58,896 nt of DNA, from NCBI GenBank assembly GCA_024399065.1, contig JAKSIB010000021.1:1-58896 (forward strand), written 5' to 3'. This stretch comes from Fibrobacter sp. (GTDB lineage Bacteria > Fibrobacterota > Fibrobacteria > Fibrobacterales > Fibrobacteraceae). Positions 43,548-49,002 of the stretch are shown here, one piece after another. The notes beneath the pieces are model-generated. The model ran no database searches, was not told the origin of the DNA, and saw only the letters and a program-made list of their open reading frames with translations. The number at the start of each line of letters is the position of its first letter. Positions within the stretch are counted from its first letter, which is position 1. Both the position numbers and the translations under genes were made by a program.

Positions 43548-45275
43548 ATGAGCATCAAGAAACTTATTGCATTAGGTTTGTTTTCGCTTACCTTCGCAGG
43601 ACTTACCGCCTGCGACAAAGGTTCCACGTCCCCTGAAGACGACAGCAGTTCTTCTGTCGCCTCATTCAAGTCTAGCAGTTCATTTAGCAACGACCGTGCA
43701 GACGTAGACTACAAGGGCGAAATTGTTCTTGGCGACACCATGCGTCTCTACATCGACGTAGGTGAAGAAGGCGAAGACTCCACGGAAATCTACATCGACA
43801 GCAGCGCCACCTCCATTCCGCTGTACCTGGGCGAATTTGTCAAGGGAAGCCGAATCAAGGTTTTCGTAGGCGCATCCGAACTGGAAGACGCAAAGATTCG
43901 AATCAAGAATGAACAGGGCGAATACCTCCGCGCCGTCACTGCCGTTCCGAAGAGCGCAAACAGCAAGGATTCCGTCTTCGCAAACTACATCGTCCCCGGT
44001 TTCGGTTCCGACACCACAAAGATGTTCAATGACTCCAACGAATTCATCGTCTTCAACAAGAGCCACTACTACGTGGAAGTTTCCGGCGAATTCACAAATG
44101 AATCCGCATTGAAGCTTAAGGCTGTGGTTGATACCGCCTATTATAACTACGTAGGCGATACCAAGACCATTTCCATGAAGATGACCGACACAATCCGCGG
44201 CGTCGTTCCCATGAGCGATTCCCTGGAAGAAATCGACATCGAATTCGATGCCGCGGAAGGATACAGCATCAACCTCAAGTCCTTCGGCAAGAACATTTCC
44301 AAGATCCAACTCAAGGATGGCGACGACGTTGTCGGCACCCATACCAAGGATCTCGACACTCTGCTCGTTCCCAACGGCTCCGTAGAATGGACTCTGAATA
44401 TTGCTACCGAAGACGCAGCCTTCATCGCCCTTACCGGCCCCTTCGCCTTTATTGATGTAGAAGCAAAGGCCCGTGCCTTGGAACAAGGTGAATATTTTGC
44501 AAATCCGGACTCCATCCAAAAGCCGGGTGCAACGTTCACCCGCACTCGACCGAAGGACGATCCGGAAAAAGCCATCTACAAGTACAACCTCCGCCAGGAA
44601 CAGTACATCTGGATCGGCGATTTCAAGAAGGGTGATTCCATTCTTGTTGAGCACAAGATTTCCAACTACTCCGACGAAAACAGAGTTAGCCCCGTAACCA
44701 TTGAAATCCTTGACAAGAACCAGAAAAAGCAGGCCACCGTAAACTCTGTCTATGGTGGTGGATTCTCCGTCACCAAGGATATGCCGGAAGGTCCTTACTA
44801 CCTCCACTACCTCCGCTTAAATTCGGAACCTCTCGACCAGGTTTCTGAATCCATGCGTTACGTTCTTCAGCTTCACACCCTCGTCCAGCAGCTCGGTTCT
44901 GTAGAATCCATGGAGTTCTACAATACCGAAAAGGACAACACCTACAAGGTCATCAGCCCCGTTCCGGGCGACACCATCCGATTCAACAAGTTCGTCTTCT
45001 TGATGGAACCGAACAAGGATAAGGGTTGGAAGGAAGTCGGTGACAACGTTCGTTGGTATGTTCCTTGCGAAGACCTCCAGTACATCAATAACAAGTACAA
45101 GATTTCTTCCTGCCAGAGCAACGGAACCGGAGAACAGCAAATTTCTGCAAGCTACTTGATCGTACAGAATGATAGCGACGGAGAAACCGCCAAACTGATT
45201 GCAGAAAGTATTGCAGACCCCACAATGAGAGACACCCTGGATGTCATGATCATTGCAAAGTCTGAAGAAGACTAA
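43548..45275 (+). CDS. Large lipoprotein of unknown function with Ser linker
   Basis: The 575-aa lipoprotein (lipobox LTAC) has a short Ser-rich stretch (DDSSSSVASFKSSSSFS) and then two or three beta-rich modules with GDTMRLYID, YLGEFVKGSRIKVFVG and YIWIGDFKKGDSILVE. The recurring xG(D/E)F(K/V)KG pattern suggests duplicated domains. No family is recognised. The 10-nt gap after the double beta-helix gene implies co-expression and a partner role on the cell surface. Confidence 0.7.
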   Translation: MSIKKLIALGLFSLTFAGLTACDKGSTSPEDDSSSSVASFKSSSSFSNDRADVDYKGEIVLGDTMRLYIDVGEEGEDSTEIYIDSSATSIPLYLGEFVKGSRIKVFVGASELEDAKIRIKNEQGEYLRAVTAVPKSANSKDSVFANYIVPGFGSDTTKMFNDSNEFIVFNKSHYYVEVSGEFTNESALKLKAVVDTAYYNYVGDTKTISMKMTDTIRGVVPMSDSLEEIDIEFDAAEGYSINLKSFGKNISKIQLKDGDDVVGTHTKDLDTLLVPNGSVEWTLNIATEDAAFIALTGPFAFIDVEAKARALEQGEYFANPDSIQKPGATFTRTRPKDDPEKAIYKYNLRQEQYIWIGDFKKGDSILVEHKISNYSDENRVSPVTIEILDKNQKKQATVNSVYGGGFSVTKDMPEGPYYLHYLRLNSEPLDQVSESMRYVLQLHTLVQQLGSVESMEFYNTEKDNTYKVISPVPGDTIRFNKFVFLMEPNKDKGWKEVGDNVRWYVPCEDLQYINNKYKISSCQSNGTGEQQISASYLIVQNDSDGETAKLIAESIADPTMRDTLDVMIIAKSEED

Positions 45276-45278
45276 TTA

Positions 45279-45488
45279 TTAAACTTCCCAAATCTGATTG
45301 GGAAGTTTTCCTATATCGCGGAAGTCCAGCTTACCGGCAGACGGTGCAGAAACACTGACCAGGCGAGCAAGAGGCTTGCCGGCACGTTCAATAACGATTT
45401 CTTCGTCCTTGATGGCAACCTGGTTCAGAAGGTTGCCAAAATTTTGACGGACTTCCATTGCGGATACAACTTTTGCCATAGTATCCAT
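45279..45488 (-). CDS. Solitary Phd/YefM-family antitoxin-like protein
   Basis: The 69-aa protein contains AKVVSAMEVRQNFGNLLNQV followed by IVIERAGKPLARLVSV, a standard Phd/YefM DNA-binding fold. The C-terminal toxin-binding tail is short (GKLPNQIWEV). No toxin gene lies next to it: upstream is the divergent xseA 20 nt away and downstream is a convergent gene 3 nt away. MAKVV at 45479 is an alternative start. The last ten codons coincide with a 10-bp terminator stem. Confidence 0.85.
   Translation of the reverse strand: MDTMAKVVSAMEVRQNFGNLLNQVAIKDEEIVIERAGKPLARLVSVSAPSAGKLDFRDIGKLPNQIWEV
45282..45309. terminator. Terminator embedded in the antitoxin coding sequence
   Basis: AACTTCCCAA-atctga-TTGGGAAGTT (45282-45307) is a perfect 10-bp stem followed by TT on the plus strand. 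On the minus strand it is followed by TTTAATAATT. It lies inside the last codons of the Phd-like gene and ends the plus-strand 43548-45275 transcript. Confidence 0.7.
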
Positions 45489-46834: not shown

Positions 46835-47248
46835 TTATTGAAACTGCGGCAGTGCGTCAATTTTTTGAAATCGTTTTGTTTCCGGATCCAAAGCGAAATA
46901 GCGCACGGCATCGCCAAGGGAAAGCATCACATAGTTTGGGGTAAGAAACTGCAGGTACTTGTTCAGCTGTTGCTGCAATACCGGCCAGTTGTATTCCCCA
47001 GGAGCCTTGCATTCCACCAAAAGCCAAGGTTTGTCAATGGTCGCCCCTGCACGAAAATTGTGGACCATAATGTCGACGCGGTCCTCTGTTTTCGGGTCGA
47101 TCATACCCAGCGGAAACTCCACCGCGATCAAATGTTCCGGAACCTTCACCTGGTCCAGCAAGTAGCGTACCGTAGCCTGACGCACGTGTTCCTCGGGAGT
47201 TGCGGGAACATCCTTCTTGCGGATGGGATCGTATAGGTAATCAGGCAC
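46835..47248 (-). CDS. Solitary HsdR_N-like (PD-(D/E)XK) protein
   Basis: The 137-aa product has the type I restriction HsdR_N_2 pattern EEHVRQATVRYLLDQ, VEFPLG, DIMV ... LLVECKAP (Asp and Glu-x-Lys nuclease residues) and QLNKYL. It is not accompanied by other restriction genes, so it may be a small nuclease-fold protein of other function. The start codon is a GTG lying inside an AGGNNCG repeat array, with GGAG 11 nt upstream, also from the array. Confidence 0.8.
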   Translation of the reverse strand: MPDYLYDPIRKKDVPATPEEHVRQATVRYLLDQVKVPEHLIAVEFPLGMIDPKTEDRVDIMVHNFRAGATIDKPWLLVECKAPGEYNWPVLQQQLNKYLQFLTPNYVMLSLGDAVRYFALDPETKRFQKIDALPQFQ

Positions 47249-47270: not shown

Positions 47271-47369
47271 AAGTGGCGAGTAGATAACTATGGACCGAAA
47301 AATAGAAAACAGGCTTTTTTTCATTTTTCAGCAACTCCCAATTTCCCACAAAAAATGTTTATCAAAGCC

Positions 47370-47398
47370 TTGACGTGCGTAAAATCCAGAAGTATATT
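47370..47398 (+). promoter_or_regulatory. Sigma-70-type promoter of the small ORF/RNA
   Basis: TTGACG (47370-47375), a 17-nt spacer and TATATT (47393-47398) predict a start near 47405. Confidence 0.7.
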
Positions 47399-47405
47399 CT
47401 TTGGC

Positions 47406-47510
47406 ATGAACAAGATCTTTGAACAGAACATCATCGCAGCAGCGATTGCGGCAGGCGCGGCGGAAGCTCGAGCCTGTGTTAAGTCGTGGGCGGCTGTTCA
47501 AGAATTGTAA
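47406..47510 (+). CDS. Possible leaderless small protein (34 aa) or small RNA
   Basis: The ATG lies 7 nt after a good -10, at or one base from the predicted RNA 5' end. It opens a 34-codon frame: MNKIFEQNIIAAAIAAGAAE followed by ARACVKSWAAVQEL. The peptide is Ala-rich and could form one helix. The frame is short enough that a non-coding RNA of about 185 nt, ending in the terminator at 47556-47590, is an equal alternative. No known RNA family motif (SRP, RNase P, tmRNA) is recognisable. Confidence 0.45.
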   Translation: MNKIFEQNIIAAAIAAGAAEARACVKSWAAVQEL

Positions 47511-47555
47511 AAGTCTAACCGAAACAAGTTACAAGGATTAGGCAAAAGGAATTCA

Positions 47556-47590
47556 AAGGGCAGTCCCGCAAGGACGGCCTTTTTTATTTT
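47556..47590 (+). terminator. Terminator of the small ORF/RNA unit
   Basis: GGCAGTCC-cgcaa-GGACGGCC (with one A-G mismatch) is followed by TTTTTTATTTT. Confidence 0.8.
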
Positions 47591-47697
47591 AGCCGATTTT
47601 AAACCAAAAACAACAAACAAGGGAAATTCAAAATCATTTTTTATCTATTATTAAGCGGTAAATTATTTGAATTTTCAATACGATACAGGAGTATAAA

Positions 47698-49002
47698 ATG
47701 AGAAAGCGTTTGCTTACCGAAGGTGCCAAGGAACTGTCTTACGAAATCCGTGAGATCGTAAAGAAGGCGAACCTCCTGAAAACGCTGGGCATGCCGAAGA
47801 TTCACTGGGAAAACATCGGCGACCCCATTGAAAAGAAGTGCCAGGTTCCCGAATGGATCAAGGACATCGTTGTGGACCTTTCCAAGGAAAACCGTTCCTA
47901 TGGTTACTGCCCGTCCAAGGGTATGCTGGAAACCCGCGAATTCATCGTGAAGGAAACCAACAAGCTGGGCGGCGCCCAGATTACCGTTGACGACATCCTG
48001 TTCTTCAACGGCCTCGGTGATGCAATCGCCACATTGTACAGCCTCCTGTCCATGACCACCCGTATCATTGGACCGTCTCCTGCATACAGCACCCACAGCT
48101 CTGCAGAAGCAGCACATGCACACTCTGCTCCTATCACTTACAGCATGAAGCCGGAAAACCACTGGTATCCGGACCTGGAAGAACTTGAAAACAAGGTGAA
48201 GTACAATCCCTCCATCGCCGGTATCCTGATTCTGAATCCGGATAATCCCACTGGCATGGTGTACCCCCTGGAAATTTTGCAGAAGATCGTTGATATCGCC
48301 AAGCGCTACAACCTGTTCATCATCTGCGACGAAATCTACAACAAGATCACCTACAATGGAGCTCACGCCTACGCTCTGGCCGAATACATCGGCGACGTTC
48401 CGGCTATTGCCCTGAAGGGTATTTCCAAGGAATATCCGTGGCCGGGTGCTCGTTGCGGCTGGGCAGAATACTACAACCGCGACAAGGACGAACAGTTCGA
48501 CGCCTTCTGCCGCGCTTTGGACAACGCCAAGATGGTCGAAGTCTGCTCCACCACCCTGCCGCAGATGACCATTCCTCGCGTGCTGGGCGATCCTCGCTTC
48601 ATGGAACACCGCCAGGCTTTGAACGAAAAGATCGGCCGTCGCTCCGCCATCATTAACGAAATTCTTTCCGACATTCCGGAACTGTATTTCAACCCCACCT
48701 ACGGTGCATTCTACAACACCATCATCTTCCGTGAAGGTGTTTTGAACAACCACCAGAGTCTGAAGATCGACAACCCGCAGATTAAGGCCAAGGTGGAAGA
48801 ATGGTGCTCCAAGACCGAAAACCTGGACTACCGTTTCGTGTACTATCTGTTGGGCGCAAAGGGTATTTGCGTGGTGCCCAGCACCAGTTTCTGCACCGAC
48901 CTCAAGGGCTTCCGCGTGACGCTGCTTGAAGAAGACGAAGCAGAACTGCGTAGCGTGTTCACCACCATCCACGACGCCATCATCGAGTACCTGCACAGCT
49001 AG
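47698..49002 (+). CDS. PLP-dependent class I/II aminotransferase
   Basis: The 434-aa fold type I enzyme has the LNPDNPTGMVYP block, FIICDEIYNKI, the PLP lysine Lys244 in LKGISKEYPWPGARCGW, and a C-terminal GFRVTLLEEDE with the carboxylate-binding Arg. It probably transfers amino groups between an amino acid and 2-oxoglutarate; substrate preference cannot be read. GGAG lies 5 nt before the ATG. An imperfect repeat region follows its stop. Confidence 0.92.
   Translation: MRKRLLTEGAKELSYEIREIVKKANLLKTLGMPKIHWENIGDPIEKKCQVPEWIKDIVVDLSKENRSYGYCPSKGMLETREFIVKETNKLGGAQITVDDILFFNGLGDAIATLYSLLSMTTRIIGPSPAYSTHSSAEAAHAHSAPITYSMKPENHWYPDLEELENKVKYNPSIAGILILNPDNPTGMVYPLEILQKIVDIAKRYNLFIICDEIYNKITYNGAHAYALAEYIGDVPAIALKGISKEYPWPGARCGWAEYYNRDKDEQFDAFCRALDNAKMVEVCSTTLPQMTIPRVLGDPRFMEHRQALNEKIGRRSAIINEILSDIPELYFNPTYGAFYNTIIFREGVLNNHQSLKIDNPQIKAKVEEWCSKTENLDYRFVYYLLGAKGICVVPSTSFCTDLKGFRVTLLEEDEAELRSVFTTIHDAIIEYLHS

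Follow-up and report, generated by a model that had tools for sequence, protein, structure and literature searches.

The DNA in front of an aminotransferase gene in Fibrobacter sp. raised a question: what is the function of a promoter that is followed by a very short, alanine-rich reading frame and a transcription terminator? We addressed it in the 58,896-nucleotide stretch of DNA that contains this locus (hereafter, the window). The gap in question spans 449 nt, from a divergent gene with an HSDR_N-like domain (46835–47248 on the minus strand, identified from the list of open reading frames and a domain match) to the start of the aminotransferase gene at position 47698 on the plus strand. A preliminary description of this DNA gave the length of the gap correctly but took it to be otherwise empty, which it is not: a conserved inverted repeat is found at ~47622–47678.

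That description had also noted a sigma-70-like promoter on the plus strand, and one is indeed present at 47370–47398. Its -35 element (TTGACG, 47370–47375) and its -10 element (TATATT, 47393–47398) are separated by 17 nt. Considered by itself, this promoter is within chance expectation, as three promoter-like sites occur in 2 kb of the window where 1.9 would be expected.

The leader is raised above chance by the features that its homologues keep. Among 167 genomes of the phylum, 116 were found to have the aminotransferase gene, and the upstream regions were then fetched and oriented. We gathered and aligned 59 distinct leaders, and a covariance model was built and run against the 167 genomes. 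The peptide and the leader DNA occur in many genomes of Fibrobacter: the model returned 62 matches with E < 1e-25, one per genome, the carriers being 58 of 80 Fibrobacter genomes and 4 genomes of a sister genus. The next best match (E = 6e-4) is what remains of the terminator in a genome whose leader ORF has been lost. No convincing second copy was found in the same genomes or in the phylum, the weak matches (E ≥ 6e-4) being remnants or background. Every aligned leader is on the same strand as the aminotransferase gene and 265–592 nt upstream of it, with the gene directly 3' of the leader. A TTGAC-type -35 element is kept in the 59 leaders, and the spacer is 17 nt in 44 of them and 18 nt in 14. 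Promoter, spacing, frame, alanine codons, terminator and antiterminator are all kept in these homologues; the conservation of frame and structure that the preliminary description had proposed to look for in related genomes is thus present.

The leader ORF encodes the 34-residue peptide MNKIFEQNIIAAAIAAGAAEARACVKSWAAVQEL, in which 11 residues are alanine. It begins with an ATG at 47406–47408, runs to 47507 and ends with a TAA stop codon at 47508–47510. As described earlier, 7 nt separate the end of the -10 element from the start codon, and this spacing is exactly the same in 53 of the 59 leaders. The only conserved columns upstream are those of the -35 element (blurred by the 17- and 18-nt spacers), the -10 element with its flank (-13 to -7) and a C at -1. 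Both C(-1) and A(+1) are conserved at the leader start, and transcription is predicted to begin with the A of the ATG. A Shine-Dalgarno-like tetramer precedes the leader ORF in none of the 59 leaders (0/59); before the aminotransferase gene, a Shine-Dalgarno-like site is present in all 59. These features bear out the earlier suggestion of a leaderless unit, and the leaderless reading, with a predicted transcription start at 47406, is well supported by the comparative data.

Leaderless initiation is also plausible in this organism because leaderless-type promoter–ATG arrangements match 21 times in the window's genome, vs. 3 times in a reversed control, and several of the matches open long ORFs. 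These are ordinary long genes, and no second amino-acid-rich leader emerged from this pattern in the window's genome. Eight of the 21 matches lie together on a single contig of unknown-looking genes (C15, L217–L224), which is possibly a prophage or another mobile element that favors leaderless starts.

Alanine accounts for 29% of the leader codons vs. 7.8% in seven genes of the window, and each of the 59 leaders has 9–15 alanine codons. Codon choice differs as well: GCG makes up 5 of the 11 alanine codons in the window's leader vs. 9 of 277 in the window's genes. The main alanine codon run (47436–47474), which holds the putative regulatory codons, forms an internal hairpin in the fold of the window's leader; this hairpin has a compensatory pair in the RNAalifold consensus. 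Changes in the length of the run preserve the reading frame throughout the alignment. A codon-substitution analysis, also proposed earlier, gave a partial answer: 43 of 111 changes are synonymous (27% expected, p = 0.006), a modest excess among related sequences whose comparisons are not independent.

The peptide exists in three versions. In clade B, which holds most of the genus, the ORF reads MNKIFGQNIIAAAIAASPAAARAIMGLSRETKICKA; in clade A, that of the window, it reads MNKIFEQNIIAAAIAAGAAEARACVKS..VQEL; and clade C, the sister genus, has a third version. An N-terminal F[GE]Q motif and an AARA motif are almost invariant, and the C-terminal third varies by clade. The RNA that encodes part of this third (segment 2, see below) is kept and read in another frame. 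A conserved small protein was considered and ruled out on these grounds, and no family matched the 34-residue peptide among the Pfam and NCBIfam profiles. The identity of the peptide appears to matter mainly as alanine codons, as would be expected of an attenuator.

The covariance check suggested in the preliminary description yielded three conserved helices with compensatory changes across related genomes. In the first, segment 1 (47418–47426; UUUGGACAG in the alignment, UUUGAACAG in the window) pairs with segment 2 (CUGUCCAAA; window, CUGUUCAAG) to give an anti-antiterminator. Over the 59 sequences, 97.6% of the cells in this helix are paired, and a compensatory exchange of G-C for A-U separates the clades. 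In the second, segment 2 (47492–47499, GGCUGUUC, placed by alignment and folding) pairs instead with segment 3 (GGGGCUGUCC with GGGCAGCCCC). This antiterminator is also 97.6% paired in the 59 sequences, and both-sided changes occur at 3 of its 10 pairs. Segment 3 (47558–47565, GGGCAGUC) doubles as the 5' arm of the third helix, the terminator, in which it pairs with segment 4; 96.6% of this helix is paired over the 59 sequences, and a U tract follows. When the partners were shifted by 1–3 columns as controls, pairing dropped to 22–64%. The rho-independent terminator noted earlier is therefore present (47555–47588, with the stem at 47555–47583 and the U tract extending to ~47588), as predicted by folding and RNAalifold; a simple terminator pattern scan had missed it in the window.

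The antiterminator is extended in the fold of the window's leader by GAAUU (47502–47506), which pairs with AAUUC (47550–47554). This inner helix is GAAAC:GUUUC in most of the genus and GAAUU:AAUUC in the window's clade, where the alignment sets it off by one column and the counted pairing percentage is lowered as a result. The loop of the antiterminator holds a small hairpin (CUAACC...GGAUUAG, 47513–47543) with covarying counterparts AUCUG:CAGAU and GUCCGG:CCGGAU. With no structure given, RNAalifold recovered the segment 1:2 helix, the hairpin of the alanine run and the terminator, and the fold of the whole window leader is unusually stable (z = -3.25). Because the sequence of segment 2 is the same although clade A reads it in a different frame from clades B and C, this segment must be constrained as RNA.

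Do these helices behave as a switch? We approached this question with a simple, non-kinetic masking computation that imitates a stalled ribosome. When whole leaders were folded, the terminator formed in 44 of 59, and the minimum free energy structure preferred the antiterminator in the other 15. When all sequence 5' of segment 2 was masked, the antiterminator formed in 47 of 59. It formed in all 59 leaders at the stage before segment 4 exists. The window's leader itself adopts both states, depending on whether it is folded whole or masked.

The hallmarks of an attenuator are thus assembled here: a short ORF rich in one amino acid between a promoter and a gene, an intrinsic terminator, and computed, mutually exclusive antiterminator and anti-antiterminator pairings. 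We consider it very probable that the unit is a ribosome-mediated, alanine-responsive transcription attenuator with a leaderless leader peptide, placed upstream of the aminotransferase gene. From the conserved sequence features, we infer the start site, translation, stalling, read-through, the alanine signal and the activity of the enzyme. In the proposed mechanism, RNA polymerase would start at the A of the leader ATG or immediately beside it, and a ribosome would load on the bare 5' AUG, with no Shine-Dalgarno site, and translate the alanine-rich peptide. When charged tRNA-Ala is ample, the ribosome would pass the alanine codons and cover or release segment 2; the segment 1:2 helix and the 3:4 terminator would then form, and transcription would end after ~183 nt. 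When charged tRNA-Ala is scarce, the ribosome would stall in the alanine run, leaving segment 1 unable to sequester segment 2. Segment 2 would pair with segment 3, no terminator would form, and the polymerase would read through into the aminotransferase gene. One step is less clear than in trp, namely the masking of segment 2 by the terminating ribosome, because the end of the stop codon lies 35 nt past the start of segment 2 in most relatives (19 nt in the window's clade).

A different signal could act on the same architecture: the attenuator might sense general translation stress, as an arrest peptide or an antibiotic-responsive uORF would, instead of alanine. The near-invariance of the F[GE]Q and AARA motifs recalls arrest peptides. 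However, FGQ sits in segment 1, and its conservation is explained by RNA pairing, as the compensatory change from GGA/GAA to UCC/UUC attests. The remaining residues vary freely, the alanine codons are found in every leader, and the downstream gene encodes an AlaA-like transaminase and not a resistance protein. We therefore regard this explanation as unlikely.

Slightly less probable still is that the unit stands alone, as a gene for a small protein or a small RNA that carries its own terminator, next to an aminotransferase gene transcribed from its own promoter. The preliminary description had leaned toward such an isolated unit and had not suggested an attenuator. A conserved promoter-like element just 5' of the aminotransferase gene (see below) would suit this arrangement, and attenuated leaders can act in trans, an example being rnTrpL/peTrpL of Sinorhizobium meliloti (PMC7298713). 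Yet a conserved antiterminator that competes with the terminator would be useless without a downstream gene, the unit is found only beside this one gene, and the C-terminal part of the peptide is clade-specific while the RNA is kept. What is preserved of the peptide is mainly alanine codons and RNA-pairing segments, so the notion of an isolated unit did not hold. Mere coincidence of a weak promoter with a short open frame and a terminator, which the unremarkable promoter statistics of the window alone would allow, is refuted by the conservation of the unit in 62 genomes from two genera, with its spacing fixed and its frame and helices kept, and has a negligible probability.

An alanine-responsive attenuator should control a gene related to alanine. 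The product of the downstream gene (47698–49002) is a PLP-dependent aminotransferase of the NCBIfam family NF005334/PRK06855; its score for the next family, PRK08363 (alanine aminotransferase), was below the curated cut-off. The best PDB matches are 1xi9 (PfAlaAT from P. furiosus) and 4cvq (AlaA from E. coli), and the PLP-lysine region is kept. AlaA and the alanine transaminase of P. furiosus have been discussed side by side (PMC4094517). We thus predict from family membership that the enzyme is alanine-aminotransferase-like and makes alanine from pyruvate and glutamate. The proposed reading of alanine by the leader lends independent support to an alanine role. Flammeovirgaceae and Cyclobacteriaceae (Bacteroidota) have homologues of the aminotransferase with ~57–62% identity, a distribution that suggests gene transfer between the phyla. 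A leader was looked for upstream of these Bacteroidota homologues and was not found.

The inverted repeat between the terminator and the aminotransferase gene (GGAAATTC...GAATTTTC, ~47622–47678) surrounds a -10-like TATTAT/TATAAT sequence. Its arms appear to covary (CAAA:TTTG, CTT:AAG, CAC:GTG), and it is also found in some genomes without the leader. In all probability, the element combines a proximal promoter with either an operator or an RNA hairpin. Given this promoter-like element and the genomes that have lost the leader, the gene should be expressible without the leader, and a basal expression that bypasses the attenuator is probable. Most likely, the attenuator adds a response to alanine starvation on top of this basal level.

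Leader-peptide attenuation of amino-acid operons is a known class of mechanism. The classical trp, his, leu, ilv, thr and phe leaders share with the Fibrobacter unit a promoter, an ORF with cognate codons, competing 1:2, 2:3 and 3:4 helices, a terminator and a downstream biosynthetic gene, which in Fibrobacter is a predicted one. The Fibrobacter unit differs from them in its alanine codons, its lone aminotransferase gene, its occurrence in Fibrobacterota, the lack of a Shine-Dalgarno site at the leader start and the lack of an Rfam leader family. The preliminary description had recognized no common RNA here, and Rfam likewise gave no T-box, riboswitch or leader family in 47340–47720 at E values up to 1; at gathering thresholds, the whole window held only a tRNA, elsewhere. 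To our knowledge, alanine is absent from the amino acids sensed by leader-peptide attenuation. A literature search that left most subscription journals out of reach found neither alanine attenuators or alanine leader peptides nor attenuators or leaderless genes in Fibrobacter.

Leaderless relatives in design are known from other phyla. The attenuator transcript of S. meliloti trpL (rnTrpL/peTrpL) has its 5' end at the leader ATG and can serve as a leaderless mRNA (PMC7298713); it differs in its Trp codons and phylum and has no sequence relation to the Fibrobacter unit. The ilvBNC attenuator of Corynebacterium glutamicum has a switch of three hairpins and a leaderless leader peptide that contains regulatory codons (PMC11857589), but its codons are for branched-chain amino acids and its host belongs to Actinobacteria. 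Related in concept, the cysteine-rich uORFs of mycobacteria are small, rich in one amino acid and followed by a related gene of metabolism (PMC4633059); unlike the Fibrobacter unit, they read cysteine and have no conserved terminator hairpin (PMC1262725). It is likely, with somewhat less assurance than the attenuator itself, that the present unit is the first leader-peptide transcription attenuator specific for alanine, and likewise the first of its class to be described in Fibrobacterota, with a leaderless start that would fuse promoter, start codon and sensor into a 183-nt unit. If true, ribosome-mediated attenuation with a leaderless start would extend to a phylum that is distant from Proteobacteria, Actinobacteria and Firmicutes. 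The attenuator would also predict a simple control rule for alanine synthesis in major fiber-degrading gut bacteria, and the alignment of 59 sequences with its covariance model could form the basis of a new RNA family.

About 20 of the 80 Fibrobacter genomes have no leader, and the leader is therefore dispensable. Three of them retain terminator remnants: upstream region L010 keeps the -35 element and the terminator but lost the leader ORF, and L060 and L082 keep the terminator only. These three are natural deletions of the sensor; together with the variation in alanine run length, such losses make the attenuator model easy to test. Six other upstream regions (L017, L018, L023, L061, L077 and L084) have insertions between the terminator and the aminotransferase gene, which consist of a dispersed repeat-like sequence (GGATCCTT..GCCCTTTACAGGGCTCAGGATGAC) or of 'CTCGTT..TCTCACGAGC' hairpins. 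The insertions lengthen the distance from leader to gene and leave the attenuator intact.

Elsewhere in the window, a gene for a Phd/YefM-type antitoxin (TIGR01552) is located on the minus strand at 45279–45488, between the ORF at 43548–45275 and xseA.
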